Shown here: piece after piece, positions 2,528 through 60,200 of the stretch
Layout of the letters: each line of letters begins with the position of its first letter
Numbering within the stretch: the stretch's first letter is position 1
NCBI RefSeq assembly: GCF_013141825.1
Contig: NZ_RZNH01000019.1
Location: 261 to 64,260 of the forward strand
Direction: 5' to 3'
From: Marinifilum caeruleilacunae
GTDB taxonomy: Bacteria > Bacteroidota > Bacteroidia > Bacteroidales > Marinifilaceae
Length of the DNA: 64,000 bases
Notes under the pieces: model-generated
Seen by the model: the letters and a program-made list of their open reading frames with translations, nothing else
Databases searched by the model: none
Told to the model about the DNA's origin: nothing
Program-made: the position numbers and the translations under genes

Positions 2528-2545
2528 ATCTTACGATAAGTTTTA

Positions 2546-2580
2546 AAGCCGGTAGCTCATATGAGTTTCCGGTTTTTTTA
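2546..2580 (+). terminator. terminator after kbl
   Basis: CCGG..CTCATATGAG..CCGG hairpin followed by TTTTTTT, starting about 20 bp after the kbl stop codon. Confidence 0.75.
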
Positions 2581-2609
2581 TAATTTAGCTTCTCTAAACG
2601 AACCAAATT

Positions 2610-3269
2610 ATGATGATGAAGCGATATTTTTTCCTGGCATTGGTCCTTGTTTTTTCTCTTGAATCTTATTCACAATACTACAAAGATCAAACGTATTTTA
2701 TAGGTGGATCTATAGGTTATCAAATGCCTCTTGGCGATTTTGGTGATCAAGCGAATGGCGGACCAAACTTTCGAATAACGGCAAGGAAAATGCTCAACAA
2801 AAAGTTAAGTGTTGGTGCCGAATTGTCATTTAGCATGCTAGGGCAGGATAAATTCTGGGATGGAAGCCATTTGGGAAGCTATGATGTGAATTACAATATT
2901 GGGTCGGCCTTTCTGCGGGCTTCCTATTATTTCGATGCCTGGGACAGGGATTTCAGGCCATATGCTTCGCTGGCCTTTGGTTACATCTATTATCGAAATG
3001 AAATTGATTTTACAGCGGCATCTTTTGGGTCGAGCGACGACAAAAGAACCATTAGCGAGAATAAGGTAGGATTGGCACCAAATGTTGGCTTTTTATATCA
3101 CATTTCGGATGCCTGGAGTTTTGATATGAACTTGCTTTATACCTTTATTCCAAATTTTCCTGATTCTGTGACAGCCCAGGATGAGAACGGGGAGGATTAT
3201 CAATATTACCTGGGATTCGATAAAATCTCTCTCCCCGAATTATCAGTTGGATTCTATTACCGGTTCTAA
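2610..3269 (+). CDS. outer-membrane beta-barrel protein (OMP_b-brl/porin-family type)
   Basis: A 219-residue secreted protein. A signal peptide (MMMKRYFFLA..., cleavage likely after S-Y-S near residue 21) is followed by alternating hydrophobic/aromatic strands and a C-terminal Y-Y-R-F with a terminal Phe, which is the outer-membrane barrel signature. Length and glycine/aromatic-rich strands fit an eight-stranded barrel. Three ATG codons in a row start the gene, so the exact start is uncertain by two codons. Its last four bases overlap the end of the convergent kinase gene. Function is unknown: such barrels can be structural or small-molecule channels. Confidence 0.8.
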   Translation: MMMKRYFFLALVLVFSLESYSQYYKDQTYFIGGSIGYQMPLGDFGDQANGGPNFRITARKMLNKKLSVGAELSFSMLGQDKFWDGSHLGSYDVNYNIGSAFLRASYYFDAWDRDFRPYASLAFGYIYYRNEIDFTAASFGSSDDKRTISENKVGLAPNVGFLYHISDAWSFDMNLLYTFIPNFPDSVTAQDENGEDYQYYLGFDKISLPELSVGFYYRF

Positions 3270-3880
3270 AATAAACCGTGAATTTTTGCTTCAACTTTAT
3301 CCACAATGCTGTTCAAATCGGCAGGGTTTTCCAGGAAATCGATATTGTCAGCATCAACAATTAACAGGTTGCCATTTTTGTAATTCGATATCCAGTTTTC
3401 GTACCTGTCGTTTAGGTTTTTCAGGTAATCCAAACGAATGGTTTCTTCGTAATCGCGACCACGTTTCTGAATCTGATTTACCAATGTAGGTACCGAAGAA
3501 CGAAGGTAAATTAGTAGGTCTGGAGCCTGAACCATAGAACTCATCAACTGAAAAAGATTGCAATAGTTCGTAAAATCGCGTTCCGACATTAAGCCCATAT
3601 CGTACAAATTGGGAGCAAAAATTTTTGCATCCTCGAAAATGGTACGATCCTGAACCACATTTTTCCCCGAGTTGCGAATTTCCATAATCTGCGTAAAGCG
3701 ACTTTTTAGGAAATAGATCTGCAAGTTGAACGACCAACGTTGCATGTCGTCGTAAAAATCGTTTAGGTAAGGATTTTCATCTACATCTTCGTAGTGAGCT
3801 TCCCATCCGTAATGTTTTGCTAAAAGTTCTGTTAAGGTAGTTTTTCCTGATCCGATATTACCGGCTACAGCTATATGCAT
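3266..3880 (-). CDS. deoxynucleoside kinase (dNK family)
   Basis: A 204-residue salvage kinase that phosphorylates deoxynucleosides with ATP. The P loop G-N-I-G-S-G-K-T is at 7-14, the D-R-T (ERS/DRS) motif at 78-80, and the arginine-rich lid K-R-G-R-D-Y-E-E at 139-146. Substrate (dA, dG or dC) cannot be told from sequence by eye. A second copy of the same length lies 71 bp upstream on the same strand (3952-4566) and is clearly homologous along its full length. Paired small dNKs are known in some bacteria as heterodimeric or dAdo/dGuo-specialised kinases. Confidence 0.92.
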   Translation of the reverse strand: MHIAVAGNIGSGKTTLTELLAKHYGWEAHYEDVDENPYLNDFYDDMQRWSFNLQIYFLKSRFTQIMEIRNSGKNVVQDRTIFEDAKIFAPNLYDMGLMSERDFTNYCNLFQLMSSMVQAPDLLIYLRSSVPTLVNQIQKRGRDYEETIRLDYLKNLNDRYENWISNYKNGNLLIVDADNIDFLENPADLNSIVDKVEAKIHGLF

Positions 3881-44943: not shown

Positions 44944-47166
44944 ATGTCTAAAGAGCAATCAACTCAAAAGTTTGGGACTGCACCCGTATTTTTTACAGCA
45001 ATTTCTACCATTTTAGGTGCGATATTGTTTTTACGATTTGGTTATGCAGTTGGGAGCGTTGGATTTTGGGGAGTTGTATTCATCATCTTGCTGGGGCACG
45101 CCGTTACCATTCCAACCGCATTTGCCATATCCGAAATTGCAACCAATAAAAGAGTTGAGGGTGGAGGCGAATACTTTATCATATCGCGATCTTTCGGATT
45201 GAATATTGGAGCAACCATTGGAATCGCCCTGTTTATGTCGCAAGCCATTAGTGTTGCCTTTTATATTATTGCTTTTACCGAAGCTTTCGAACCAGTTTTT
45301 AACTGGGTGAGGGATACGTACGGATATCAACTACCACGACAGGTTGTGAGCATTCCGGCCATGTTGCTACTATCGGCCCTGATTTTAAAAAAAGGAGCCA
45401 ACCTTGGCGTAAAAGCGCTTTACTTTGTAGTTGCAATTCTGTTTATTTCGTTGGCGCTTTTTTTCATGGGATCAACCGAATATGCTGCTACCAGCGATTT
45501 TAATCTATGGAACGCCGATTTTAAAAATACCGATAACTTTTTTATCGTATTTGCCATTATTTTCCCTGCCTTTACTGGAATGACAGCAGGAGTTGGACTT
45601 TCGGGAGACCTAAAGAATCCTTCCAAATCCATTCCTTTGGGAACCACGGCAGCTACCTTAATTGGGATGATCATCTATTTTTTCATCGTCTACAAATTGG
45701 CAGGATCGGCAAGTAGCGAAGATTTGGTGGGCAATCAGCTAATTATGTCGAAAATTGCTTTGGGAGGAGCCATTGTAATTCCGCTGGGTTTGGCGGCTTC
45801 TACAATTTCATCGGCCATTGGGTCGGTAATGGTTGCACCAAGAACTTTGCAAGCTTTATCAATCGATAAATCATTTCCTTCGAAAGGCTTAAATAGCTGG
45901 TTGGCTAAAGGCAGAAGCTCCGATAGTGAACCCATTAATGCATCGCTGATTACTTGTATTATCGCATTGGTTTTTGTTGCATTGGGCGATGTAAATGCAG
46001 TTGCAGAAATTATTTCGATGTTCTTTATGCTTACCTATGGTGCTTTGTGCCTGATCTCATTTCTGAATCATTTTGGCTCATCGCCAAGCTACCGACCATC
46101 CTTCAAATCGAAATGGTTGCTCTCGCTTATCGGATTTTTTATCTCCATATGGGTGATGTTTAAAATCAACACCCTCTATGCTTTTAGTGCAGTGGTTTTA
46201 ATGAGTTTGATCTATTTGTTTATCAACAGGTATCACAAACACCGAAATGGCCTGGAATCGATATTCCTGAACTCTTTGTACCAGCTAAACCGAAACATGC
46301 AGGTATTTTTACAAAAAGCCGGCAAAAGAAAAACCAGGGAGTGGCGACCAAGTGCCATTTGTATTTCGAAGGATTCGTTTGAACGCGATACCGCTTTTAA
46401 ATTATTGAACTGGATATCCTACAAATATGGTTTTGGAACCTACCTACACAGAATTGAGGGATATTACTCCAAAGCCACCTATCAGCAATCGCAGGAAGAG
46501 CTCGATAAGCTAATTCGTAGTTTCGATAAGATAGAAAACCATGTGTATGTCGATACCATTATATCGCCATCCTACACTTCGGCAATTGCCCAGGCCATTC
46601 AGCTGCCCGGAATTGCTGGAATGGAAAACAATATGGTGATTTTCGAGTTCGACAAGGAAGCGCCCGATCGCCTCGATTTGATTATTGAAAACTACTCGCT
46701 GGCTCGTGCCGGGAATTTTGATTTCTGTATCCTGGGAAGTTCAAGGCGAAAGTTCAATTACAATAACAATATCCATGTCTGGATTAAATCTTCGGACACC
46801 GATAATGCAAACCTAATGATTCTGCTAAGTTTTATTATCGGTGGTCATCCCGACTGGAACAAGGCCGACATTAAAATCTTTAACATTTGTAAAGAAGACC
46901 AGGCCAACGAAACCCGGAAACAACTCGATGAATTGGTAGTGAGTGGCAGACTGCCAATAACCAATTCGAATATCGAAATTATACACGAACAGGAAAATGT
47001 GGCTTCGCGCGATATCATTAACGAGAAATCGGCCGATGCAGGATTAACCATTCTTGGATTTAGGGGAGAGACCCTAAAACATGAAAAATCGGGCTTGTTT
47101 AAAGGCTACGATGCTTTGGGAAACATCCTGTTTATCAATTCTAACAGCATGAAGACGATTGATTAA
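44944..47166 (+). CDS. amino acid-polyamine-organocation transporter, SLC12-like cation-chloride cotransporter
   Basis: 740 residues: about 12 membrane helices (residues 10-440) and a long cytosolic C-terminal region (about 450-740). The helix-1 motif A-I-S-T-I-L-G-A-I-L-F-L-R-F-G and the V-E-G-G-G-E-Y-F-I-I-S-R-S loop match bacterial NKCC/SLC12-like members of the APC fold. The C-terminal domain carries no obvious regulator motif. The substrate (Na, K, Cl or amino acid) is not decided by sequence. The last gene before the mobile element, with a strong terminator at 47170-47200. Confidence 0.88.
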   Translation: MSKEQSTQKFGTAPVFFTAISTILGAILFLRFGYAVGSVGFWGVVFIILLGHAVTIPTAFAISEIATNKRVEGGGEYFIISRSFGLNIGATIGIALFMSQAISVAFYIIAFTEAFEPVFNWVRDTYGYQLPRQVVSIPAMLLLSALILKKGANLGVKALYFVVAILFISLALFFMGSTEYAATSDFNLWNADFKNTDNFFIVFAIIFPAFTGMTAGVGLSGDLKNPSKSIPLGTTAATLIGMIIYFFIVYKLAGSASSEDLVGNQLIMSKIALGGAIVIPLGLAASTISSAIGSVMVAPRTLQALSIDKSFPSKGLNSWLAKGRSSDSEPINASLITCIIALVFVALGDVNAVAEIISMFFMLTYGALCLISFLNHFGSSPSYRPSFKSKWLLSLIGFFISIWVMFKINTLYAFSAVVLMSLIYLFINRYHKHRNGLESIFLNSLYQLNRNMQVFLQKAGKRKTREWRPSAICISKDSFERDTAFKLLNWISYKYGFGTYLHRIEGYYSKATYQQSQEELDKLIRSFDKIENHVYVDTIISPSYTSAIAQAIQLPGIAGMENNMVIFEFDKEAPDRLDLIIENYSLARAGNFDFCILGSSRRKFNYNNNIHVWIKSSDTDNANLMILLSFIIGGHPDWNKADIKIFNICKEDQANETRKQLDELVVSGRLPITNSNIEIIHEQENVASRDIINEKSADAGLTILGFRGETLKHEKSGLFKGYDALGNILFINSNSMKTID

Positions 47167-47169
47167 AAT

Positions 47170-47200
47170 AAAAAAGTCCGGGAACCACCCCGGACTTTAC
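47170..47200. terminator. terminator after the SLC12-like gene, also usable on the minus strand
   Basis: AAAAAAGTCCGGGG..CCCGGACTTT: strong GC stem starting 4 bp after the stop, with T run on the minus-strand reading (TTTTTTA). It also closes the candidate minus-strand RNA at 47170-47245. Confidence 0.7.
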
Positions 47201-47258
47201 TCTAACCCATTTTAATCTATGAAAACCTAATCCTCTCGGAAAGGACATTACAAATGTA
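47170..47258 (-). ncRNA. candidate small RNA
   Basis: On the minus strand a consensus -7 box TACATTTG (plus 47251-47258) is followed by about 75 bp with no frame and then a GC-rich hairpin plus T run (47170-47200), an sRNA-like layout. Inside is a conserved-looking AT-rich stretch ending GGGTTAGAG. On the plus strand the same region carries only the mini-frame ATG AAA ACC TAA. A -33 element is not convincing. The remaining sequence to 47500 shows no gene. Confidence 0.3.
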
Positions 47259-47503
47259 TGTATTGTTTGGTGCCTCCCATAAGAAAAAGTGTTAAAGAAG
47301 GTTAAATGCTAAGTTAATTAATGTTTTAGTGATTTTTGCTTTACATATGTTTGGGATTAAATTGTCGATATCCTTGAGTTAAATTTGTTGTAAGTCTGGT
47401 TTATGATGGTGTTTAATTTAACCAAGCTTAAAGCTTAAGATATCAATCCTGACTAAATCTAATATAGTAAAGGTAAATAGTAAGGAAAGGCTGCGAATGA
47501 CAA

Positions 47504-47541
47504 AAATCAAAAAGCGGCCACGACATAAATGCCATAACCGC
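47504..47541 (-). terminator. terminator of the truncated tRNA-Ala gene
   Basis: Minus strand GCGGTTATGGC-ATTTAT-GTCGTGGCCGC followed by TTTTTGATTTTT; all 11 pairs form if G-T pairs are allowed. It is the natural terminator of the tRNA before the element inserted. Confidence 0.65.
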
Positions 47542-47554
47542 CTTGATTTGAGGG

Positions 47555-47601
47555 TGGAGAGTATCGGAATCGAACCGATGACCTTTTGACTGCCAGTCAA
47601 A
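47555..47601 (-). pseudogene. 3' half of tRNA-Ala(GGC), attachment-site core
   Basis: Minus strand: anticodon stem-loop TTTGA-CTGGCAG-TCAAA (anticodon GGC), variable region AGGTC, T arm ATCGG-TTCGATT-CCGAT, then acceptor strand ACTCTCC and discriminator A. The D arm and 5' acceptor strand are absent: upstream sequence is AT-rich with no GCTC/GAGC pair. A tRNA cut at the 5' end of the anticodon stem, next to an integrase gene, is the signature of an integration junction (attL). Confidence 0.85.
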
Positions 47602-47754
47602 TCCCTTTGTTACATTGTTTTTTATAGTTGCCTATGGATGTTGGAATTTATAGGGCTTTTAGTTAGATTTGTTATAGTTGATATTTCAAAATAACTAGTT
47701 GTAGATACGTTTTGTTAGTTATTTTGTTAGTGCAAAATCTATTTGAATATAAAA

Positions 47755-49044
47755 ATGTCGGAAAAACTACCTGTAATTGTTCATCCAGAAATTAATGAAG
47801 AAGCTTTAAGAAGTGAAAAGGGTGTTTCATTAGTGGCATTTCTAGATACAGTTCGAAAACGAAAAGACGGAACGTCTTCGGTAAAGTTAAAAATAATTCA
47901 TCAACGTTATCCAGCTTATTTTTCAACCAAAATTTCTTTAACTGAGAAGGATTACCTGAAGCTATTTGAAAGAAGAATAAGTTCTGATCTAAAAGAGAAA
48001 AAGGTTATTATTCATACATATTTGATGAGAGCATATTCCATCATTAATATGATGGATGAATTCTCTTTTTCTGAGTTTAAAGAACATTTCAAAAAGAAAC
48101 GTATTGATGCAAAAAGTGTCTACACGTATTTCGAAAGATACATAGCTCAATTGAAATCTGAAGATAGGTTAGGAACTGCTCAGAATTACGAGTACTCCAT
48201 GAAAAAACTAAAAGAATTTCATGGTAAGAAATCTATTGCATTTGAAACAATTACTCCAACTTTTTTAAGAAAATATGAAAATTGGATGATAGCGAATGGT
48301 CACAGTAGAACTACAGTTGGAATTTATTGTAGACCTCTAAAAAAAATAATTAACGATGCTATTGAAGATGGTATTCTTGATAGTAAGAAAAGTCCATTTG
48401 GAGATGTTAAAAGAGGTCGTTACAAATCACCGGAACCTGAAAACCCTAAGAAAGCTTTAACTCTGGAAGAAATAGGGAAGATTATTAACTATTCTCCGGA
48501 GCCTGGGTCACCAGAAAATTACTACAGAGATATGTGGGTGTTTTCTTATTTAGGAAATGGTATCAACATGAAGGATGTGTGTTTGTTGAAATTTAAAGAC
48601 ATATATGCCGATACCATTGTATATGCTCGTGAAAAGGTAAAGAATACAAATCGTTCGGCTAAAACAATCTCCATTGCACTAATTGATAAGAACAAGGAAA
48701 TAATAGAGCGTTGGGGTAATCAGGCAGAGAAGAAGGATGATTTTATTTTTCCAGTTCTCGAGGGAAATCCAAATGAGGAGGAAATAAAGAAAAAAGTGCA
48801 GCAGTTTGTTAAGCAGGTGAACAAATATATGAAACGGATTTCTGAAAAATTGGACTTAAATGTTTCAGTAACGACTTATTATGCGAGACATTCTTTTGTT
48901 ACTGTACTTGTGCGTTCAGGTGTTGATATCCATACAATAGCTGAAAGTGTTGGTCACTCCAGTATGAAAGTGATTGATAAATATATCGCGAGTATTTCCA
49001 ATGAAGAGAAAGTGAAGAATGCTAATAAACTTTTAAAATTTTAA
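47755..49044 (+). CDS. tyrosine recombinase/integrase
   Basis: 429 residues from the ATG at 47755 (the frame opens at a TTG at 47743). It has an N-terminal arm-binding region, a SAM-like core-binding domain (about 115-215) and a C-terminal catalytic domain. Catalytic residues include R378 (A-R-H-S-F), H401 (V-G-H-S-S) and Y410 (D-K-Y). The place of the first arginine reads N-G-I-N-M-K-D-V, so that residue is replaced by Asn, as in several Bacteroidota integrases; the usual H before R378 is T-Y-Y. It is the first gene inside the element and likely targets the tRNA-Ala 3' end. Confidence 0.92.
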   Translation: MSEKLPVIVHPEINEEALRSEKGVSLVAFLDTVRKRKDGTSSVKLKIIHQRYPAYFSTKISLTEKDYLKLFERRISSDLKEKKVIIHTYLMRAYSIINMMDEFSFSEFKEHFKKKRIDAKSVYTYFERYIAQLKSEDRLGTAQNYEYSMKKLKEFHGKKSIAFETITPTFLRKYENWMIANGHSRTTVGIYCRPLKKIINDAIEDGILDSKKSPFGDVKRGRYKSPEPENPKKALTLEEIGKIINYSPEPGSPENYYRDMWVFSYLGNGINMKDVCLLKFKDIYADTIVYAREKVKNTNRSAKTISIALIDKNKEIIERWGNQAEKKDDFIFPVLEGNPNEEEIKKKVQQFVKQVNKYMKRISEKLDLNVSVTTYYARHSFVTVLVRSGVDIHTIAESVGHSSMKVIDKYIASISNEEKVKNANKLLKF

Positions 49045-49048
49045 TAAA

Positions 49049-49846
49049 ATGTACTGGATGTCTGAAGAGCTATCTGAATTAAGGCCAAAAGAAGAAATAT
49101 ATAATAATATTCGAGTTGAGAAATGGATTGAAGAGATTGCAGGGCCTGGATATTTTATAAAAGATTTAGAGTTAAATTTTACCATCACTAAAGAGAAGAT
49201 CGGGCAAAAAATAAGTTATGCAATTCGATTCATTAAAGAAAATTCCTACACGTTAATAAAAGAGAAAAAAACAGATTCATTAAGATTGTTAAAAGATGCT
49301 ATTTATGCTGATATAGACAAATGTAATAGTATTGCCTTTACTGACTCCTTAGAAGAAGGAAAAGAAGGAATTTATGAACTATGGAAGCATTACTTATATG
49401 ATATAGAAGAAAAATTCAGAGAACTTGAAAGTGAATTAAATTATTTGTCCGCTGTTGAAGAAATAAATATATTCTTAATGGATGAGAATATTGATGATGA
49501 AGATGTGTTGATTTATTATAACTACTCTAAAAATAAGCAGAAAAAGAAAGATGGATTGAATAGTAAAAAAATAAATATGTCAAGTATTGCTTTGTTGCAT
49601 TTTTATAATGAAGATCCTATAGATAAATTTAATGTAGATAAAATTTTGGACCGGTATGGACATCAGGCAGCAAATAAATTAATAGCAAAATATGATCTTT
49701 ATTCCAAGAGCCAAACAGAAAGATATGCATTTAGGGATTTTGAAAAGCGATTTAAAGAAATGTATGAATATCTATCGCAAGAAGGTAAAAAAAGAGCTTT
49801 AGATGACCTGGATCAATTCAGGTTAAATAAAAAGAACCGGTTCTGA
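49049..49846 (+). CDS. integrase-associated protein of unknown function
   Basis: 265 residues, acidic and helical, with predicted coiled-coil-like stretches (about 55-85, 120-150). The gene begins 4 bp after the integrase stop and is probably co-transcribed. I recognise no domain. An alternative start is the second Met (residue 4). Genes in this position in Bacteroidota elements often encode element-specific regulators or replication-linked proteins, but nothing here proves that. Confidence 0.6.
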   Translation: MYWMSEELSELRPKEEIYNNIRVEKWIEEIAGPGYFIKDLELNFTITKEKIGQKISYAIRFIKENSYTLIKEKKTDSLRLLKDAIYADIDKCNSIAFTDSLEEGKEGIYELWKHYLYDIEEKFRELESELNYLSAVEEINIFLMDENIDDEDVLIYYNYSKNKQKKKDGLNSKKINMSSIALLHFYNEDPIDKFNVDKILDRYGHQAANKLIAKYDLYSKSQTERYAFRDFEKRFKEMYEYLSQEGKKRALDDLDQFRLNKKNRF

Positions 49847-49924
49847 ACTGGTTCCCAACACAAGTTTCCTATGATTGGTTATGGCTGTTACTTATCATTG
49901 TTATGTAATAAAAAAAATGATAAT

Positions 49925-50302
49925 ATGAGTAATGAAAAAATACCAATTGAAAGAAATAAGTTTAATTTACAAACTGAAAATTTTCCACAACTACCATTTA
50001 TTGTTATTTCCAGAAAGGATTTAGAGAAGAGTCTAGAGAGTTTTGCTAGTGATATGCTTGCTAATATTCCAACGTCTCATGATGTAAGTAAGAGAATATT
50101 AGTGCTGAAAGAAGCAGCAGAATATATTCAAATGCCTGTACCAACTTTTCGAGAATATTTGGCTCGGAATGAGATAAAGGGTGCAAAGATTGGTAAATCC
50201 TGGCGCTTCTTTCCGGAAGATTTGGATGAGTTTGTGAAGAAATACCTTCGCAAAACGAATGATGAAATAGACAAGGAAATTGATGATGTATTATCTAAGT
50301 AA
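49925..50302 (+). CDS. helix-turn-helix excisionase-like DNA-binding protein
   Basis: 125 residues from the ATG at 49925 (open back to 49871). The C-terminal part is a HTH_17/MerR-type domain: L-V-L-K-E-A-A-E-Y-I-Q-M-P-V-P-T-F-R-E-Y-L then I-K-G-A-K-I-G-K-S-W-R-F, the wing sequence typical of Xis and topoisomerase-like domains. Such proteins direct excision of elements or regulate the mob genes. The N-terminal 45 residues are unlike known motifs. Next gene starts 6 bp later. Confidence 0.8.
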   Translation: MSNEKIPIERNKFNLQTENFPQLPFIVISRKDLEKSLESFASDMLANIPTSHDVSKRILVLKEAAEYIQMPVPTFREYLARNEIKGAKIGKSWRFFPEDLDEFVKKYLRKTNDEIDKEIDDVLSK

Positions 50303-50308
50303 TTTAAT

Positions 50309-50641
50309 ATGGCCAGACCAAGAAAATTACAAGAAGATCTGCGTATTTATCAAGTCAATATCCGATTAACTGAAACTGAGAAATTGAAGGCGGATGAACA
50401 AGCCGAAATGGCTGGTTTATCTGTCGCAAATTGGCTTCGAACAGCGGCATTCTCAAAAAAAACACTACAAGTAAAAGTGTCACCAATGCACCGAACTTAC
50501 TACCGTCAATTAGTAGGGATTGGCAGCAATGTAAATCAATTAGCTAGAAAAATTAATCAGAACCAGTATCCGAAAATCTATCAGCAATTGTTAGATGTAA
50601 AGAGTTTATTGATAAAGATTAATGAGATATTTCAAGAATGA
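50309..50641 (+). CDS. MobC-like relaxosome accessory protein
   Basis: 110 residues. N-terminal basic stretch, then a ribbon-helix-helix-like strand (Y-Q-V-N-I-R-L-T-E-T-E) and helix A-E-M-A-G-L-S-V-A-N-W-L-R-T-A-A, and the C-terminal block G-S-N-V-N-Q-L-A-R-K-I-N that marks the MobC/BmgB family. It binds near oriT and helps the relaxase open the DNA. The last four bases overlap the relaxase start (ATGA), coupling the two. Confidence 0.88.
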   Translation: MARPRKLQEDLRIYQVNIRLTETEKLKADEQAEMAGLSVANWLRTAAFSKKTLQVKVSPMHRTYYRQLVGIGSNVNQLARKINQNQYPKIYQQLLDVKSLLIKINEIFQE

Positions 50642-51822
50642 TAGGAAAACAGATTATAGGAACTTCTTTTCGGTCTGTTCTAAACTATAATGAAGAAAAA
50701 CTTCAACAAGGCAAAGGTGAAAAAATAGGTGGTAATATGTTTGGTGTTGATTCCAGATCCTTGGCTAAGGAGTTTGGAATGATTAGAGCGTTAAAACCTA
50801 ATGTTTCCAAAGCTGTTTATCACACATCAATAAGTATTTCTCCAGATGAGGATTTGTCTAATGAAAAATTTCGAGAACTGGGTGAAAAATATCTTGAACG
50901 AATGGGTTTTGATAATAGTCAATTTCTGATTTATCGTCATACTGATACTGAGCATCCGCATATACATTTAATTGCTAATCGAATTGATCTGGATGGTAAG
51001 GTGGTTAGTGATAGTGGGAATTACAAAAGATCAGAAAAGATTATTCGAGAACTAGAGAAAGAGTATGCATTAAAGGAAGTAGTTTCTTCAGAGAAAGTGG
51101 AAGAGAAAGCTTATTCAAAAGGACAATATGAGAATTTCAGAAAGACAGGTGCCATACCAATTAAAGTACAACTTCAGGTTATAGTTAAAAAGGCAATTAA
51201 AGAGTCAAGATCGGTTAAGGAATTCGAAAATAGAATAATTAGAGGTGGAGCAACAGTAAAGTTTCATAGGAATAGCAACGACAAAATTTATGGAGTTAGT
51301 TTCCAGATGGAAGGAGTCAAGTTCAAAGCTTCACAATTAGGAAGAGGATATTCATGGAACAAGATTAAGGAACAATTATACGATGAACAAAATCAAAGAA
51401 TTGGCTCAGAAGAAAGTGGACGAAAGGGCTCATATACTCGAGGAGCAAGTCAGAAAAATACAAGAAATCAACCTACAGGATATCAAGGAACTGAAGATCA
51501 AATTAATTCCAGTTCTAAAGGCTCTGAAGGGGTTGATAATCGAGGTCAAGAAAGAGACAGTCATATTGAATCAACTGCAAAATCAACAGACAGATATTCT
51601 GGAACAGGGGGACAAGCAGCTACATCGAATGACTTATACAGTAACGAAAATGGAACAGAAGTTACTGGCAATGAAAGTGAAGGTGTTTCTGGTGGCAATA
51701 CTAGTGGGATTATTAACGGGCTTAATATGCTTTTTGGTGGTTCTGCTGGTCGTTTGGAAGGGCAACCTTTAGATGATGATAAACCTAAAAAGAAGAAGAA
51801 AAAAAGAAAACGAAGTGTGTAG
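50638..51822 (+). CDS. relaxase (MOBP-type, MobA/VirD2 family)
   Basis: 394 residues. Residues 1-245 form the relaxase domain: probable catalytic Y17 (S-V-L-N-Y), then the three-histidine cluster H101-x4-H106-P-H108-I-H110 that binds the metal. It nicks at oriT and pilots single-stranded DNA in transfer. The last 150 residues are a low-complexity, Ser/Gly/Thr/Asn-rich tail ending in a Lys-rich patch and R-S-V. A second gene is nested in this tail in another frame (51383-51772). Confidence 0.9.
   Translation: MIGKQIIGTSFRSVLNYNEEKLQQGKGEKIGGNMFGVDSRSLAKEFGMIRALKPNVSKAVYHTSISISPDEDLSNEKFRELGEKYLERMGFDNSQFLIYRHTDTEHPHIHLIANRIDLDGKVVSDSGNYKRSEKIIRELEKEYALKEVVSSEKVEEKAYSKGQYENFRKTGAIPIKVQLQVIVKKAIKESRSVKEFENRIIRGGATVKFHRNSNDKIYGVSFQMEGVKFKASQLGRGYSWNKIKEQLYDEQNQRIGSEESGRKGSYTRGASQKNTRNQPTGYQGTEDQINSSSKGSEGVDNRGQERDSHIESTAKSTDRYSGTGGQAATSNDLYSNENGTEVTGNESEGVSGGNTSGIINGLNMLFGGSAGRLEGQPLDDDKPKKKKKKRKRSV
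51383..51772 (+). CDS. nested gene: coiled-coil protein with C-terminal membrane helix
   Basis: 129 residues read in the +1 frame within the relaxase gene. Residues 5-95 are strongly helical with heptad-like hydrophobic spacing (E-E-Q-V-R-K-I, L-K-I-K-L-I-P-V-L), and residues 101-125 form one very hydrophobic membrane helix ending W-K-G-N-L. AAGGAA lies about 10 bp before the ATG. The host frame there is low-complexity, which is what would be expected if this frame is under selection. Nested mobB/mobD-type genes inside the relaxase gene are known from ColE1 (mbeB and mbeD in mbeA). Likely a mobilization membrane-anchor or entry-related protein. Confidence 0.7.
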   Translation: MNKIKELAQKKVDERAHILEEQVRKIQEINLQDIKELKIKLIPVLKALKGLIIEVKKETVILNQLQNQQTDILEQGDKQLHRMTYTVTKMEQKLLAMKVKVFLVAILVGLLTGLICFLVVLLVVWKGNL

Positions 51823-52189
51823 ATTTGCTATATCAACCTTCGATTTTGTAGATACAGTTAACTAAGGTTTCTTAATTTTTAGAAGTGTTGTTAGAACGAA
51901 AGTAGTATCAATTTAAAAATCATTTTTTCCCCTAAATGGAATTTTCTTTGATTCGATTGATAATATGATAATGTAATATTGGAATGTAATATGTCCGTTT
52001 TAATCTGATAACTATTTGGATTGATATATTTTCATGAGAAGAGAATTACTTATGACATTTGGTTAAGAGCAAGCCATGTTTTAGCTACGGAAAATCCTTG
52101 CACAACCACTTGAAATTTTCTGCACATCTGTTTGAAAATTTGTTACTCGGTACAGCTCGTAAGGATAAAAATAAAGACCTTAAAATATA
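51823..52189. other. intergenic region with direct repeats, possible oriT or regulatory site
   Basis: No gene seen. Two 22-bp imperfect direct repeats lie at 52099-52120 and 52121-52142 (both start TGCACA and contain TTGAAA). They lie just after the mob genes, so they may be protein-binding repeats or part of oriT. Confidence 0.35.
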
Positions 52190-52738
52190 ATGATTGAACT
52201 ATCTAACGAAATGCTAATTACCAAGGATGTTTATAGAGCCTTGGTTGACTATGGAAATATTCTTGTTGTTAATCTTCTTAGGCAAGCTATAAATCTTGAA
52301 GAAAAGGAAAATAATGTAGGGGAAAAGTATTATACTGTAAGGGAAGAATTTGAAAGGTTAAACTTCCAGGAAGGACAATCACAGAATCACTATTTCCAAG
52401 AATTAACTCAATTAACAGTTTCTTATCTGAATAATCTAAGTGATTCGGACAAAACAGCTATTTGTTTTCGTTTGATTAGTGATGAGAAATACTACAATCA
52501 ACTGCTCGAACTGGTCGAAGAAGAGGAAACTGATACCATGGAACAATACAACCATAAAATTGGCCGAGAAATGGCCAGGCTTCTTTACGAAGAAGATAAG
52601 AAGGAAATAATGAAGTGGGCAAAAGAATTCTTAATGGATACTGTGGCAATCTTTTCAACTGAATTTGATTTTTCGTTGATTGATGAGAGTACAAAATATG
52701 CATTGGAGCATAACCTGGAAATGTATAAGAAACTATAA
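52190..52738 (+). CDS. hypothetical protein
   Basis: 182 residues, acidic, helical, soluble-looking, with Y-H-D-like segments such as L-L-E-L-V-E-E-E-E-T-D. Not recognised. The gene stands alone between the mob genes and the GYF-domain gene with AT-rich flanks on both sides, and has a good start with purine-rich AAAGACC 9 bp upstream. Possibly an element-specific small regulator or toxin-related protein. Confidence 0.6.
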   Translation: MIELSNEMLITKDVYRALVDYGNILVVNLLRQAINLEEKENNVGEKYYTVREEFERLNFQEGQSQNHYFQELTQLTVSYLNNLSDSDKTAICFRLISDEKYYNQLLELVEEEETDTMEQYNHKIGREMARLLYEEDKKEIMKWAKEFLMDTVAIFSTEFDFSLIDESTKYALEHNLEMYKKL

Positions 52739-53165
52739 TACTTCAAAATAACTCTAAGCAGATTGTTGAGCTTGATTTTGAGCAGTATATTCAAAAGATT
52801 TTTAATAAAACAATCAATTTATACTTGCTGTAATGTATATTAATCGATATTGCCAATAAAGGCAAACTAAATTTTCATTCTTTCCAAAGTAAGTTTTATT
52901 GGCACCTTTCTAAAAATAATTACTGAACTGTAAATACATAATACTGATTATATCTGTATGAACATCAAAGTGTGTTAATTTGGTTTAAATAACAACGGCT
53001 ATTTTTATCCACTATACAATAATTACTCAATGGGTTAGGTGCATTTCAATAAACTTGACACATTTGGCAGTTCTTATTTTGTTTAATATGGTGTAATTTC
53101 ATCGGTTATCATTTCGAAAATGAAACCAAGCGATTAGTTTCAGAGAAATATATTTCGAATAAATA
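52739..53165. other. gene-free AT-rich stretch
   Basis: No frame with coding character on either strand. GTTAGGT occurs at 53033-53039. The next block starts with the hairpin ACGCCA-CATTT-TGGCGT at 53170-53186. Confidence 0.5.
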
Positions 53166-53167
53166 AT

Positions 53168-53178
53168 GCTACGCCACA
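53168..53178. repeat. left copy of an 11-bp inverted repeat
   Basis: CTACGCCACAT, whose exact reverse complement ATGTGGCGTAG is at 55162-55172. The left copy sits in a hairpin (ACGCCA/TGGCGT 53170-53186) before the GYF gene; the right copy sits in a 9-bp stem hairpin (TATGTGGCG/CGCCACATA 55161-55193) after the nuclease-like gene. Confidence 0.6.
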
Positions 53179-53225
53179 TTTTGGCGTTGTCAATTTATAA
53201 AATTGTTAGAAAATTGAATAATCGA

Positions 53226-54023
53226 ATGAATAAACAATGGTACTATGTCGAAAATGGTGACCGTAAAGGTCCTTATCCGGCAAATGAGTTAAAAGGTAAA
53301 ATTCAAAAAGATACTTTGCTTTGGTGCGAAGGGATGAAAGATTGGAAAAGAGCTGATGAAATTTCTGAGTTTAAAAGTTTTTTTGAAGTGATCCCTCCTC
53401 CAATTCCCGGAAGTAAGGAGGCAAATCAGGCTACCGGTAATAGAATTTCCAATAGTGTTTTATATGCCTATACCTTTGCTGTACTTGCCATTATAGCTTG
53501 TATTATAGAATTAACAGGGAATGAAGATTCGAAATATTATGCAATGGCTATTTTCTTAAGCGGCACATCGCTGGTAAGGGTTTTTTTAGGTATAAGATCG
53601 TATTTCTCAAAAATATTGCACAATGATAAGCTGACTGCAATTGTAACTTGGCTAATTGCTACACTTATACCAATCTATTTATTTGAAGTTTTAGCAACCA
53701 GAAAAGGTTTTGAAGATCGATTCAACGATGAATTAGGAGTTCTTCTGTTTGTAATTGTAATGTTTTCGGCAATCATTCATATTTACCAGTTTATTAGATT
53801 CAGAATTAAGCTGGCAAAAGTCGATGGTGTTGGACACGATCAATTGAAAATGTTTGCAAGCTTGCAGTTGATCTTCTTTCCTGTTTCTATTTTATTAATT
53901 GCATTTTTCGAAGAAGAAAGCTCTATGAGTATACTTTATACCATTCTTCAATTGGTGCCTATTTATTTCTTAATAACAGGCTTACAAAAAATCGAAAATC
54001 AATTTATAGCTAAAACCGCATAA
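53226..54023 (+). CDS. GYF_2-domain multi-pass membrane protein
   Basis: 265 residues from the ATG at 53226; an in-frame upstream Met at 53166 falls in the hairpin. Residues 4-50 match a GYF_2 domain: W-Y-Y-V-E-N-G-D-R-K-G-P-Y, then L-L-W-C-E-G-M-K-D-W. GYF_2 domains bind proline-rich peptides or act in membrane signalling. After it come about six hydrophobic segments (from residue 75 to 260). In Bacteroidota such proteins are often small membrane proteins of unknown role. It is 9 bp from the next gene, so they are a two-gene module. Confidence 0.8.
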   Translation: MNKQWYYVENGDRKGPYPANELKGKIQKDTLLWCEGMKDWKRADEISEFKSFFEVIPPPIPGSKEANQATGNRISNSVLYAYTFAVLAIIACIIELTGNEDSKYYAMAIFLSGTSLVRVFLGIRSYFSKILHNDKLTAIVTWLIATLIPIYLFEVLATRKGFEDRFNDELGVLLFVIVMFSAIIHIYQFIRFRIKLAKVDGVGHDQLKMFASLQLIFFPVSILLIAFFEEESSMSILYTILQLVPIYFLITGLQKIENQFIAKTA

Positions 54024-54032
54024 AACTTACCC

Positions 54033-55148
54033 ATGAACCATAAAGAACTAGAAGTTTTTCTTTCCAATAAAGAGATCCCGAAAGTAAAAACAAAACCCAA
54101 AACCTTTTTAGGAATTGCAAAACAACCGCATTACGAAAATGTATTGTCGAACTTGTATGCATTTTATTTCGATGTGGACGAAGAACATAAAATGGGCGAT
54201 TTATTCCTTTCGTCATTGCTGGATTTGATTCAGAAAACTAAAATAGGAAAAGAAAAAAGCTTAACGATATATGATGAGCCCGATATCAAAACAGAGTATC
54301 CTAGTGTAAATGGAGGACGAATCGATCTTTTGATTAGGAACGATGAGCATGCCATTATCATTGAAAATAAAGTATTTCATTGTTTGAACAATATTTTAGA
54401 AAACTATTGGAATACAATAAAAGTTCCTGTAAAAAATAAAATAGGTATTGTACTTTCTCTACACCCCATTAATCCAACGGGACATCCACACTTTATAAAT
54501 ATTACTCATATCGAATTATTAAAAAAGGTAATGAGTAAAGTAGGAGATTATTTACTTGGAGTCAACGAGAAGTATCTAGTCTATTTAAAAGATTTATACC
54601 AAAATATTATCAACCTTAGCACAAGCAATATGGATAAGAACGCACTCGAATTTTATTTCGAACACCAAAAGAAAATTAACGAAGCAGCCACATTAAAGAA
54701 TAGTGTGCATAATCATGTGCTTAGCGAAGTTGAACTTGCTTGTGAGCGCCTGGATATTAATTTGAATTTATCAGGAAAAAGAACCGATCGCTTAAGATAC
54801 TTTCAATCTTCAAAGAATAGCGATTTAATGTTTACAATTGTTCTGGATAAGTTGTTGTTGCAAGAAGAAGAGAAGAAGCTTTACCTGATAATAGAATTAA
54901 AACACAAAGAATTAGAGAATAAGGAAAGATTTAATGCAATTGATTTTTCTGAAGATGAAAAGAAAGCCAATGTATTAAAAGCTGATTTCTTTACCAACAC
55001 CAGTGCAAGGTGGGCACATTTTGCATTAAAAGAATACAAACCCAAGGAAGAGCAAATTGCCAACTTAAGCCAATTTATAATTGAGAAATTACATGAAGAC
55101 CAATTTGTCTCTATTTTTAATAAACTAGAAGATTTTATTTCCAATTAA
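54033..55148 (+). CDS. PD-(D/E)XK nuclease family protein (PDDEXK_4-like), first
   Basis: 371 residues. A nuclease core is visible at 94-113: G-G-R-I-D98-L-L-I followed by H-A-I-I-I-E111-N-K113, giving D...E-x-K. This matches the PDDEXK_4 pattern (G-G/R-x-D-L-L-I ... E-N-K). A Q/Y motif is expected further on and is not confirmed. These proteins are often defence-linked in Bacteroidota but function is not established. The C-terminal half is a separate helical domain. It is part of the GYF-linked module. Confidence 0.8.
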   Translation: MNHKELEVFLSNKEIPKVKTKPKTFLGIAKQPHYENVLSNLYAFYFDVDEEHKMGDLFLSSLLDLIQKTKIGKEKSLTIYDEPDIKTEYPSVNGGRIDLLIRNDEHAIIIENKVFHCLNNILENYWNTIKVPVKNKIGIVLSLHPINPTGHPHFINITHIELLKKVMSKVGDYLLGVNEKYLVYLKDLYQNIINLSTSNMDKNALEFYFEHQKKINEAATLKNSVHNHVLSEVELACERLDINLNLSGKRTDRLRYFQSSKNSDLMFTIVLDKLLLQEEEKKLYLIIELKHKELENKERFNAIDFSEDEKKANVLKADFFTNTSARWAHFALKEYKPKEEQIANLSQFIIEKLHEDQFVSIFNKLEDFISN

Positions 55149-55160
55149 ATGGGAAGATGT

Positions 55161-55193
55161 TATGTGGCGTAGTTGTTAGGTCTGCGCCACATA
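55161..55193. repeat. 9-bp stem hairpin with right copy of the 11-bp inverted repeat
   Basis: TATGTGGCG-TAGTTGTTAGGTCTG-CGCCACATA. Perfect 9-bp stem, 15-nt loop containing GTTAGGT. No T run, so not a terminator. Confidence 0.65.
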
Positions 55194-55255
55194 TTACTTT
55201 AATGAAGTGCAATTTATTATAGAATCAATCCACATGAAAATTTAAAAATCAGAGC

Positions 55256-56344
55256 ATGAATATTTTTAGAATTTTATCATCCAACGATGGATCCATTAAC
55301 GAACCCAATGTAAGTTCATTCTTGGCATATCTTTTAAATCCAAATGAGGATCATGGTATTTCAGGATTATTGTTGCAAGAGCTATTAAACGAATTTTTAT
55401 TTGTAGATAATGATTTTCTGCAAAAAATAAAGTTCGACAATAGGATAACGGACCTTTCCAAGTACTCTGGATACTCAGTTAATATTGTTCCGGAAATGAC
55501 GGTAAATTTAAATGGAGAAGGTAAAAAGAAGCGTCGAGATATCGATATTCTGATCGAGATAATTGAGGATAGAACTAAGGAGATACTATATGCCATTTGT
55601 CTTGAGAATAAGATTACAGATGCTTCCATAAGCAAGAAAGATTCCCAGTTAGAAGATGAGTTAAGTGGATTGCAAAATTACTATCAGGAGAGTGATTTGA
55701 ATCCCGAAATCTACGTGGTTTACCTTACCCCTTATCCATCTGAGATTTCAAGCTATTCGTTTGATAAATTGGAATACACAAAGAAATGTCACTTGTATTG
55801 GGATAAACATGAGCATTCTATTTTTAATAAACTGATAAAAATATTTAAGGATGAAGAAAATGGTTTGGTTGATCCAATAAACAACCAGTCATCATACCTG
55901 ATTAAGTCCTTTTTGTCTTTTATTAAAACTAACTTTAAGAGTTATGTAGAGGAACGTAAAGAGATTCAGGAAAAGAAAAGCTATGGAAAGCCAGTAATCG
56001 ATCTTTTGAATGATTTTGTTGATACTCTTGAGTATGATAAAGATTATCCTGTAGCTAGCATTAAAAACAAATTCTCGGCATATGTATTGGAAGTTTCAGG
56101 ATTAGAGTTGAACAATGGAACCCGAAATGCTCACATTACTTTAGCGACTGTGAATGATAGAAATAGGGCTCATTATGGAGTAAAAAAGTTCGACGATGAA
56201 AGAAAGAATATTTTCTATTATACTGATGAAAGTAGAAAAAATTTAAGACGTTTTCATCCTCAACAGCATGAGAATGTTGAGATTTATTATAAAAATGGAG
56301 ATGAAACAGAAGTGATTTACTCTTGTGAATTGCAAGAAGTTTAA
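55256..56344 (+). CDS. PD-(D/E)XK nuclease family protein (PDDEXK_4-like), second
   Basis: 362 residues. The core motif runs R-R-D95-I-D97-I-L-I then C-L-E117-N-K119, again D...E-x-K, followed by S-K-K-D-S-Q-L that fits the family Q motif. It shares only the core with the first nuclease-like protein, so the two are not recent duplicates. The N-terminal E-P-N-V-S-S-F-L-A-Y-L-L-N-P is the helical E...N motif before the core. Likely nuclease, probably part of the defence cargo. Confidence 0.8.
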   Translation: MNIFRILSSNDGSINEPNVSSFLAYLLNPNEDHGISGLLLQELLNEFLFVDNDFLQKIKFDNRITDLSKYSGYSVNIVPEMTVNLNGEGKKKRRDIDILIEIIEDRTKEILYAICLENKITDASISKKDSQLEDELSGLQNYYQESDLNPEIYVVYLTPYPSEISSYSFDKLEYTKKCHLYWDKHEHSIFNKLIKIFKDEENGLVDPINNQSSYLIKSFLSFIKTNFKSYVEERKEIQEKKSYGKPVIDLLNDFVDTLEYDKDYPVASIKNKFSAYVLEVSGLELNNGTRNAHITLATVNDRNRAHYGVKKFDDERKNIFYYTDESRKNLRRFHPQQHENVEIYYKNGDETEVIYSCELQEV

Positions 56345-56369
56345 GTGAAACAAAACAATTGAATAACAC

Positions 56370-57032
56370 ATGCGAAATCCTTGGAGAAACCTAAATACTG
56401 ATGTAACCAGCATACACCCATTGGACATGCAAGCGGTTGACGAATTTAATGCTCAAGCAAAAGAGGAATACCAATTTTGCAATACTCTTTTGCCCGACCC
56501 ATATATTGGCAGTTTAAAAGCCAAGGTTCTACTCTTGGCCTTAAACCCAGGCTTAAGTGCTGAGGATTATCAAACACATGCCGATGAACAATTTCGTTTC
56601 CTTTACAAACAAAACCTGGCACAGGTAAAATGCGATTATCCTTTTTATTACCTAAGCCCAGACTTAAATTGCCCAGGCTCGAAATGGTGGCGTGGCAAAT
56701 TACGCTGGTTTTCAGAAGAAATGGATGATAAAATCTTGGCACAAAGCATTTGCTGTTTGCAATACGTGCCTTACCACTCGGTACAGTTTAAACAGGCAAA
56801 ACAAATGCTGCCAACTCAGGAATATACAAGAGAAATTGTAAAAAGTTTCATGGATAGAAATGCACCCATTGTATTTATGCGAAGCAAAAGCAAATGGGAA
56901 CAATTGGTGCCTGAATTAAAAGGTTACCCAAACGCAATGATGCTAAGAAACCCTAGGAATCCAACTTTTAGTCCGAAGAATATGGGGGAGGAGAATTTTG
57001 AAGAATTACTAAAGTTAGTTAGACGTAAATAG
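56370..57032 (+). CDS. hypothetical protein, possible uracil-DNA-glycosylase-like fold
   Basis: 220 residues. Two blocks recall the UDG superfamily: V-L-L-L-A-L-N-P-G-L near residue 54-63 (motif A analogue) and M-L-R-N-P-R-N-P-T-F-S-P near residue 190-201 (motif B analogue). The rest is not alignable by eye, and the usual catalytic Asp/His are not obvious, so this is only a suggestion. It starts 25 bp after the second nuclease-like gene and could be transcribed with it. Confidence 0.5.
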   Translation: MRNPWRNLNTDVTSIHPLDMQAVDEFNAQAKEEYQFCNTLLPDPYIGSLKAKVLLLALNPGLSAEDYQTHADEQFRFLYKQNLAQVKCDYPFYYLSPDLNCPGSKWWRGKLRWFSEEMDDKILAQSICCLQYVPYHSVQFKQAKQMLPTQEYTREIVKSFMDRNAPIVFMRSKSKWEQLVPELKGYPNAMMLRNPRNPTFSPKNMGEENFEELLKLVRRK

Positions 57033-57299
57033 TATCGGAATATCTATAAATGTAACGAGAGTTATAAGATAGAATTGTTTTTCAAAATCCTATCCGTGTG
57101 ATACTTCTCAATGAGCTTCGAGTAATACTTAAAATTTAATGCTGTGAAAAGTGATAATATTTGAATCCCTTAATTATTTTTGTTGGTGACTTATTTACAT
57201 ATAAGAATTGATTTAATAAAGAAGTAATATAATTATGAGGAAGCTTACCTCACTGGTGATAATAACTTCGGATATATTAGGATTTAAATAGAGAATTAA

Positions 57300-60200
57300 A
57301 TGAGCAATTCAATAAATAAACTAAGATTTTTTCTGAAAGAAATGTTCCAATTCAACGAGAATGATTTGGATTTTGGTATTTATAAGATATACAACCTTAA
57401 AAGGAAGCAAATAGAGGCTTTTATTGATGGTGAGAATGTAAATGATCTTAAACCAACAATTGAGAAGATTTTAAATAAAGTTAAGCAAGAAAATCAGAAA
57501 AATGACTCCCTCGAACTGTGTAATTTTCTTAAAGGTTTAAATCAAGACAAATTATTAGAAGATCCGGAAGCTAATTATCAGCAACTTGAATTATTCATAG
57601 GAACTGAACAAAATGCCGAAAAAAAGGCAAAACATATAGAAACACTAAATAAATTATCCAAATCAGAAGAGATTTCTGATGCTTTGAAAGATCAAATTTA
57701 TAATCATATACTTAGCTTCTTTCAATTGTATTTCTCTAATGGAGATTTTGGATACAATGATCGTAGCAGAGACATTTATAAAGTTCCATATGAAGCTGAT
57801 TACAATGGTTCAGATACGATGTTCCACTGGAAGCATAAAGGTAGTCTATACGTAAAAACAGGAACCTCATTTAATGCAATAAAGTTTAATCTTAATGGAG
57901 AAAAAATAGAGTTTCGTTTAGAAACAAATACCGAGAGTGAAAATGAGGAAGTTGCTCGTAACAATAATAAGGATAGTCAACTAAAACATTATCGCTTTGA
58001 CAGAATTGAAAAGTATGATGACGTCTATCAAGTAATATTCAACCTCAGTGATGCTTCAAGTTCTAAAGTGGATATTTTCAAAGCTATATATCAAGAGATA
58101 TTCCCAAAGATCTCGATCGATAAATATCTCACTTACTCAGAATTTAATAAAAAACAACAAAAGGATGTAACAAAAAATGTTTTTGTTGACTTAACTAAAG
58201 ACTTTGATAAGGTTCAGAACGGACAGATAAAAGGATTATCTGCTCTAAGACAAAAAAAAGAAAAAGTTGCGAAATCTGCTAAAAAGAATTTTGAACAAGG
58301 GACAAAATTGTATGATGAAAGTGAAAACAAATTTTTAGATGAAACCCTTGCACAACTATATGCACTAGATCAAAAACTAAATAGCTTTTATATCGGAAAT
58401 GATTCTGACTATTTTATTCATGAGAACTTGAATAAATTCTTAAGTAATGAAAAACAACGTTACGTTAAGAACTACATCTTTGATGATCTAGAAAGCATTT
58501 ATAAAGGAAAATTAGATAATACAACAATCCTCATTGCAAACGCATTTGATCAAGTAAGTAGCAGAATAATTGAGTTTTTGAGTGCTATTGAAGATTTCCA
58601 AAAACACCTTTTTACAAAGAAGAAGAAGGTTGTAGAAAGTGAATATTGCATTACGTTGGATTATGTAGATGAAAAACACTACTTAGAAATTTTAAATAAC
58701 AAAGCGCAACTTAATGAATGGAAAGAGTTGTTTCGTTTGGAAGTTAACACGATTGAAGATTTAAAAGGCAATCCAACCTTGGTTCTGGATACTAAGTTCT
58801 TTAATAAAGGTTGTAAAAATACTTTAAAAGATAAAATACTTTCAGATATTGAAGATGTAGATCAAAAAACAAACGGCATATTGTTAAATACAGAAAACTG
58901 CCAAGGTTTAAAATTAATTGAAAACAAATTCAAAAAAAATATTGATTGTATTCATATAGACCCACCTTATAATACAGACACTAGTGGTTTTCTTTATAAA
59001 AACGAGTTTAAACATTCAAGCTGGGTTACAATGATGCAGAATAAAATTATGCTGAGCTCTGAATTGTTCAATAAGGATGCCTTGTTCCTGACCCATATTG
59101 ATGAAAACGAGTATGAGAGTCTCTTTAAAATCTTTGATGAATCAAAATTTACCAATTTAGGAACAATAATTTGGGATAAAAGAAACCCAATGAATGGAGG
59201 AGCAGGAATTGCTAATCAACATGAATTCGTGCTATGTTTCAGTCCAGATAACCCACGAATATTTCGAAGTAAAAAACTTATTAATGAAATACTGGATAAG
59301 GCAGAGGAGTTGATCAAAAGTGAGGGTGTAGTAAATGATAATGTGAGAAAAAAATTTAGCAAATGGATAAACAATAATGATTCGCTTTCTGGAGGAGCTA
59401 AAGCTTATAAATATATTGATGACAGTGGTAGGGTTTATCAAAGTGTTAGTTTAAGAGCACCAGAACCAAGAAAAGATAAAAAATTTCATCAACCATTGAT
59501 TCATCCTGAAACAAATAAGCCTTGTTCAATGCCACCCAATGGTTTTTCTCGTACACCTGATACTTTAAAACAAATGCTGGAAAATGGAGAAATATTGTTT
59601 GGTAAAGATGAATCCATTCAACCTAGACAGAAATCAATCTTAGCAAGAAATACACTGTTTCAATTACCTTCTGTAATACAAGATGCAAAAAAAGGAAAGG
59701 CTGATACAGATAAATTAGGCGTTCAGTTTCCTTATTGTCATCCTGTTTCCTTATATAAAGAATTGGTTGGTCTTGAATCAATTAAAAATGACGCAATAGT
59801 ATTAGATTTTTTTGCAGGGTCAGGTACAACAGGGCAAGCAGTAATAGAACTAAACAAAGAGGAAAATAAGAATAGAAAATACTTGCTTATGGAAATGGGT
59901 AACTACATGAGAGCTATTACTAAACCAAGAATTCAGAAAGTTATTTATTCCAATAATTGGCAAAAAGGTATACCTATTGATTCAAATGGTTCGAAAAAAC
60001 ATATTTTTAAATATCAGGTACTAGAACAATATGAAGATCTCCTCGATAATTTAATAGTTCCTGATATTAAAGTGCCTGAGCATCTTCCATTAAAATACTT
60101 ATATAAACCAGAGGAAAATTCATTAGACAGTACCCTTGATATCTTCAATCCATTTGACAATAAAATTAAATATGGTCAACCAAGTCAGGAAGGTTTTATT

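Follow-up and report, generated by a model that had tools for sequence, protein, structure and literature searches.

Fully nested genes on the same strand are seldom established in bacteria, and annotation tends to lose one of the two. In ColE1-type plasmids, small mob genes occupy a second reading frame of the relaxase gene; ColE1 has two of them, mbeB and mbeD, within mbeA. In the plasmid R1162, the transport signals of MobA reportedly require MobB, as a title of Parker and Meyer from 2007 words it. The available excerpts place these signals at residues 204-323 and 322-387 of MobA (PMC10025392, citing Parker and Meyer 2007), and describe an overlap of mobB with mobA in RSF1010 (PMC5572225) and of mobA, mobB, and mobC in MOBP5/HEN modules (PMC3832669). 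The Bacteroides elements NBU1, NBU2, Tn4555, and cLV25 carry a tyrosine integrase and a MobP relaxase and are mobilized by helper systems; no nested gene is mentioned in the available part of the text, in which the word "MobB" occurs 0 times (PMC5704250). No description of a nested gene in Bacteroidota relaxase genes was found in the open-licence literature searched.

The window, which is the whole stretch of 64,000 nucleotides analysed here, comes from a Marinifilum caeruleilacunae genome of 5.27 Mb in 202 contigs. Within it, segment 47743-63611 resembles an integrative mobilizable element carrying defence cargo. The genes follow the order tyrosine integrase, excisionase-like helix-turn-helix protein, mobC, relaxase/mobB, and then the cargo, which is composed of two PD-(D/E)XK proteins matching the PADLOC candidate PDC-S26 and a type III methyltransferase with a restriction subunit (Table 1). 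The element shares the tyrosine integrase and the MobP relaxase with NBU1, NBU2, Tn4555, and cLV25, and differs from them, as far as the excerpt describes them, in having the nested gene. No attachment-site repeats were identified for the element, and Rfam gave 0 matches at 46000-58000. A 265-aa protein encoded at 49049-49846, between the integrase and the excisionase-like gene, has no match in Pfam, NCBIfam, or PADLOC.

The window relaxase carries PF03432 as its only Pfam domain, and is not fused to a RepB primase. It looks MOBP-like, matching the NCBIfam model NF041893 (TraI/MobP) with an E-value of 1.9e-21, but with 76.6 bits against a cut-off of 250. The NCBIfam model named "Bacteroid_MobB" also matches this relaxase, and its name is unrelated to the nested MobB. 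No relative of the relaxase was found in the PDB by phmmer at E<=0.01 or in the search of viral contigs. The nested gene starts with the ATG at 51383, its stop ends at 51772, and its offset of 745 nt corresponds to relaxase codon 249. The first-pass annotation had claimed a 129-residue open reading frame contained entirely in the +1 frame of the relaxase gene, and its coordinates are exact (51383-51772 in 50638-51822). It had also called the relaxase tail over this region low in complexity, which agrees with a fraction of S/G/N/T/Q/D/E/K/R/P of 0.81 over the overlap (relaxase residues 249-378), compared with 0.61 in the domain. Behind the overlap, the last 18 residues contain 5-10 K/R in 21/21 aligned relaxases. 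With this basic C-terminus conserved beyond the overlap, the relaxase frame is not free either and apparently has to stay readable through the nested gene.

Table 1. Features of the mobilization region in the window
Feature	Position	Strand	Description
Tyrosine integrase	47743..49044	+	
Excisionase-like helix-turn-helix protein	49871..50302	+	
MobC/NikA-like relaxosome accessory protein	50309..50641	+	110 aa; stop overlaps relaxase start (ATGA)
Relaxase gene	50638..51822	+	394 aa; Pfam Relaxase PF03432 at residues 17-145, E 2.5e-38
AAGGAA, possible ribosome-binding site of nested gene	51367-51372	+	10 nt upstream of ATG
Nested mobB-like gene	51383..51772	+	129 aa, +1 frame within relaxase gene; predicted helical rod and C-terminal membrane anchor
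Predicted membrane helix	51683..51757	+	nested-gene codons 101-125; best 19-residue window = residues 106-124
Relaxase C-terminal acidic-then-basic tail	51772..51819	+	DDDKPKKKKKKRKRSV; begins where nested gene ends

The strong C-terminal membrane helix proposed earlier is clear in the hydropathy profile of the nested protein, where residues 106-124 form the best 19-residue window with a Kyte-Doolittle mean of 3.18. Lysines directly precede this segment; hence the product is most likely N-inside and tail-anchored. AlphaFold2, using an alignment of 3 sequences, predicts a single helix spanning residues 2-128 with a mean pLDDT of 90 and a pTM of 0.36. The heptad-rich coiled coil that the first-pass annotation considered clear was overstated, as a crude test of 3.5-residue periodicity of the hydrophobic residues gives P=0.199 for the window protein and P<0.05 in only 3/21 members of the nested family. 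Searched against the PDB, the family profile has 12 matches at E<=1, which are designed coiled coils plus a mixture of natural chains, most of them helical; two designed coiled-coil chains are matched weakly (E 0.0005 and 0.001). Pfam contains no family matching the nested protein at E<=1, and NCBIfam nothing but one stray weak model (E 0.042). The tblastn searches with the nested proteins of the window (in plasmids) and of locus L035 gave no match. Concerning translation, the AAGGAA site that had been taken as a good ribosome-binding site is indeed present 10 nt before the ATG but is not conserved across most homologues, since inspection by eye finds an AGGA-type site near the start only in L001, L032, and L033 among 21 loci. 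Conservation of this site was dropped as support for the nested gene.

We then considered whether the frame is open by chance, merely through the low-complexity, A-rich relaxase tail, with nothing made from it. In the window alone, the +1 frame stays open in 1.2% of replicates when synonymous codons are resampled with the relaxase protein fixed (P=0.012), and in 3.6% when codons are permuted within the overlap (P=0.036). The open frame is thus just modestly unlikely, which is suggestive only, and in some homologues the probability of an open frame under synonymous resampling is high (0.53 in L033). As the improbability in the window alone is weak, comparative evidence has to decide. Among 28 Bacteroidota relaxases, 22 have a +1 nested ORF with one C-terminal membrane segment behind the nuclease domain, so that frame, place, and membrane helix recur across deep branches. 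These 28, being 27 distinct relaxases from the relaxase searches plus L053, were reached at search cut-offs and are not a census; the weak profile matches L010, L011 (both without a relaxase by scan), and L048-L052 were left out of the counts. The nested ORFs are 103-140 aa long from the conserved start and up to 153 aa from the first start codon. They begin at relaxase codon 246-254 in 14/22 loci and at codon 262-365 in the other 8, several of which have insertions in the relaxase domain. The refuting condition named in the first-pass annotation, stops that break the +1 frame in homologues, does not arise in the 22 relaxases of 383-485 aa, all of which keep the frame, whereas the six without the nested gene (L015, L016, L017, L019, L021, and L025) are tail-less and only 304-335 aa long. 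L016, which we scored as lacking the gene, has a 73-aa +1 ORF without a strong membrane segment. The 335-aa relaxase of L019 (genome G590, 1501-2508) falls inside a nested-bearing clade and has stops in the +1 frame behind a start-like region; here, the nested gene was probably lost together with the relaxase tail.

The nucleotides at the junction deserve separate mention. In 16/21 Bacteroidota loci, the M[NS]K start of the nested gene coincides exactly with YEQ in the relaxase (about 51380-51395 in the window), while the window clade and L039 depart from YEQ but retain the nested start. One conserved stretch therefore serves both frames. The shared M[NS]KxE start was dropped as independent evidence of homology, because it is confounded with YEQ, which these nucleotides spell in the relaxase frame.

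The two frames can be told apart by the codon position that changes fastest. With the frames offset by +1, the third codon position of the relaxase is the second of the nested gene, and the first position of the relaxase is the nested third. Upstream of the overlap, the relaxase changes fastest at position 3, as is usual; within the overlap it does so at position 1, and past the nested stop mostly at position 3 again. In clade B (7 sequences, 20-codon bins), position 3 is fastest in 12/12 upstream bins and position 1 in 7/7 overlap bins, and the bin following the nested stop has position 3 fastest again. The window clade (4 sequences) has position 3 fastest in 12/12 upstream bins and position 1 in 6/7 overlap bins. 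The pair L003/L004 follows the pattern in 11/12 upstream and 5/7 overlap bins, both overlap exceptions being edge bins, and so does the IncQ-like pair L005/L006, with three ties and one position-3 edge bin. Fisher tests of the ratio of position-1 to position-3 changes, upstream versus overlap, give p<0.05 in 10/11 pairs, including the window versus L003, L004, and L009 (p = 0.0086, 0.022, and 3.4e-5). The remaining pair, L034/L041, has p=0.18, and position 3 still leads in its overlap; in L001/L003 the switch within the overlap is only slight (71 vs 65 changes). The switch from position 3 to position 1 implies that selection over the overlap acts mainly on the nested protein. The nested frame is under stronger purifying selection there than the relaxase frame.

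Protein identities over the overlap are in line with this result. The nested proteins are more alike than the relaxase tails in L003/L004 (84% vs 61%) and in L018/L020 (81% vs 68%). Under a null that constrains the relaxase only and varies synonymous codons, the observed nested identity is reached by 0/2000 replicates in 16/18 pairs, the other two giving 0.0005 and 0.005; this null redraws codons freely at differing residues, which favours rejection. Pairs in the identity null and in the Fisher tests share sequences and are not all independent. Based on resampling, the identity null, the codon-position switch, and the Fisher tests, we rejected a chance frame, which we regard as extremely improbable. 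The earlier proposal of a real overprinted gene is borne out by conserved frame, position, and architecture together with constraint that follows the limits of the nested gene, and the ORF is almost certainly a gene. The relaxase/nested pair thus offers two frames traceable through many genomes, a constraint switch at the nested limits, and losses that serve as natural controls.

Regarding its affiliation, the first-pass annotation had compared the gene with ColE1 mbeB/mbeD. A gene of that kind would have originated independently in a relaxase tail and would encode another protein, for mobilization or entry exclusion, and two features fit it: ColE1-type plasmids also hold small mob proteins in another frame of the relaxase gene, and the window relaxase looks MOBP-like. 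In ColE1, however, there are two nested genes, and MbeB_N (PF04837) has no match in the six frames of our genome at E<=1, on which ground MbeB was rejected as the nearest relative; MbeD was covered by the general Pfam scans. Position, frame, and profile similarity favour IncQ MobB instead, leaving the ColE1 kind a slim chance. By frame, start, and helix plus C-terminal anchor, the closest known relative and the nearest layout is mobB of RSF1010/R1162, which begins at about codon 250 of mobA in the +1 frame, and not ColE1 mbeB/mbeD. The nested gene is probably the Bacteroidota counterpart of IncQ mobB, residing in a mobC - relaxase/mobB operon. As in IncQ1, it lies wholly within the relaxase gene in the +1 frame, starting at codon 249 versus codon 250 in the Dichelobacter plasmid pDN1, whose MobB matches PF17511 over its whole length. 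The offsets are 742 nt in Plesiomonas, 748 nt in pDN1, and 745 nt in Komagataeibacter as in the window. A helical N-terminal part followed by a single C-terminal membrane helix, predicted for the window protein, is likewise shared with IncQ MobB. Different from IncQ1, the window locus sits in a chromosomal integrative element of Bacteroidota, its relaxase of 394 aa, versus about 700 aa, lacks the fused RepB primase, and its mobC is co-directional with and overlaps the relaxase start, whereas in the IncQ1 locus L044 a gene annotated as mobilization protein is on the other strand.

Among plasmids, the window relaxase is matched best in Plesiomonas and Chitinibacter (43.7%), with Serratia at 40%, and these records annotate an IncQ-type MobB at the nested place. 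The IncQ-type plasmids of Plesiomonas (L006) and Serratia (L005) have relaxase domains up to 44% identical to that of the window (L006), with MobB in the +1 frame at codon 248. Together with Komagataeibacter pGXY040 (L045, typed MOBP), they share with the window a +1 nested start at codon 248-249 and a mobC-like gene upstream that overlaps the relaxase start. They differ in having the relaxase fused to a RepB primase and a nested protein of 161-167 aa, which in L005 and L006 extends further beyond the membrane helix than that of the window.

The likeness of the window protein to IncQ MobB becomes visible by profile comparison only. PF17511 (Mobilization_B) has no match in our genome at E<=10, and none of 21 Bacteroidota nested proteins matches it better than E 0.035 among the best 25 of 68 families listed; the nested proteins of L045, L053-L057, L060, and L061 have no match to it at E<=0.01. 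The IncQ-like MobBs match it at 4e-13. In hhalign, the window clade (4 sequences) aligns with the two IncQ-like MobBs over 111 columns at 76.3% (E 2.2e-5), with five IncQ and IncQ-like MobBs at 83.9% (E 7.8e-6), and with a mixed set of 9 at 80.0%, the reversed controls of the IncQ-like and pooled comparisons reaching 0.2-2.0%; the pooled sets are not independent because they include the IncQ-like pair. Comparison with Bacteroidota clade B reveals a weak tie (37%, control 0.4%). The values for IncQ1 MobB alone (1.9%) are indistinguishable from the reversed controls (1.4 and 3.2%), and those for Bacteroidota clade C (1.0%, controls 3.3 and 2.3%), the E. coli/Enterobacter pair (1.5%, control 1.8%), and Komagataeibacter (0.3%) are similarly low. 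Common ancestry with IncQ MobB is therefore likely, with moderate profile support, but it is not proven against convergence, in which helix and anchor would have arisen separately inside a permissive relaxase tail.

A MobB-like function of the nested product is probable by analogy. Ribosomes would start at the internal ATG (51383) on the same mRNA, while the relaxase would read across the overlap as a polar linker to its basic C-terminus. The nested product would sit in the inner membrane by a tail anchor, its helical N-terminal part lying in the cytoplasm. Like R1162 MobB, it may bind the relaxase, hold the relaxosome at the inner membrane, and expose the relaxase transport signal to the coupling protein of a helper type IV secretion system, which another element would supply. 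Tethering of the relaxosome to the membrane is, on this analogy, its most likely role. No coupling protein (PF02534, PF12696) was found in our genome at E<=1e-5; any helper would therefore be foreign or undetected. The absence is either what is expected for a helper-reliant mobilizable element or a sign that these families miss a divergent coupling protein. The gene might instead be real but have another job, for example as a small membrane regulator or toxin-like protein that is there by origin alone. The family has diverged widely, 20 of its members being 12-31% identical to the window protein, which would suit such a role. Still, the gene is always inside the relaxase gene in the loci examined and absent from tail-less Bacteroidota relaxases, and the R1162 protein encoded at this place, MobB, acts in mobilization, which makes another job unlikely. 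Should the MobB-like function hold, Bacteroidota mobilizable elements would share this kind of membrane-tethering helper protein with broad-host-range IncQ plasmids. That would bear on the way in which elements lacking a secretion system of their own exploit one supplied by a helper.

Beyond Bacteroidota, 15 relaxases were hand-picked from hit lists of 368, 185, 22, and 173 records. In this set, a +1 nested ORF with a C-terminal membrane segment is present in 11/11 proteobacterial relaxases, five of which (L005, L006, and L042-L044) were chosen knowing their MobB annotation (6/6 otherwise), and in 1/4 cyanobacterial relaxases, namely that of Gloeobacter. The long cyanobacterial relaxases of Nostoc, Crinalium, and Oscillatoria (508, 701, and 527 aa) have no nested gene. 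On a relaxase tree of 41 rows (32 with and 9 without the nested gene), presence and absence require three label changes compared with 8.3 in shuffles, though the depth of the tree is unsure owing to long branches, IncQ1 above all. The relaxase/mobB two-frame pair could tentatively be one ancient gene pair rather than something peculiar to IncQ plasmids, a reading to which we give somewhat less than even chances. It would predate the split of the relaxases now in Bacteroidota, Pseudomonadota, and Gloeobacter, keep its frame and place through near-complete sequence turnover, be lost with the tail, and often be missed by annotation, which reports just one of the two frames. If so, few same-strand nested gene pairs in bacteria would be as widely conserved, and membrane tethering would be a general step of mobilization. 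The arrangement itself is a variant of a known one, and its interest comes mainly from the broad, under-annotated layout.

Annotation of the nested place is uneven. The nested genes of L005, L006, L042, L043, and L044 are annotated as MobB, a "hypothetical protein" covers the place in L045, L057, and L060, and no nested gene is listed for L054, L055, L056, and L061 in the PLSDB gene table, which is incomplete. For L006 (2501-4663), L042 (774-2885), and L060 (1348-3000), this incomplete table lists the nested gene or hypothetical protein and not the enclosing relaxase ORF. In L057 (Gloeobacter pGMOR1, 2276-3382), a cyanobacterial relaxase gene contains a 369-residue +1 nested ORF that has a membrane segment at its C-terminal end; a hypothetical-protein gene overlaps that ORF, and no relaxase gene is listed there. 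Closer to the window, the nested protein was found in 3 of 57 genomes of the family, our own included, and an alignment search of 393 genomes of the order gave 4 matches, strong in our genome and in G085. A genome of the same genus (G039) also carries the locus. The genomes of L022 (G819) and L053 (G658) each have, besides their clade B copy, a second relaxase/nested locus of another relaxase clade.
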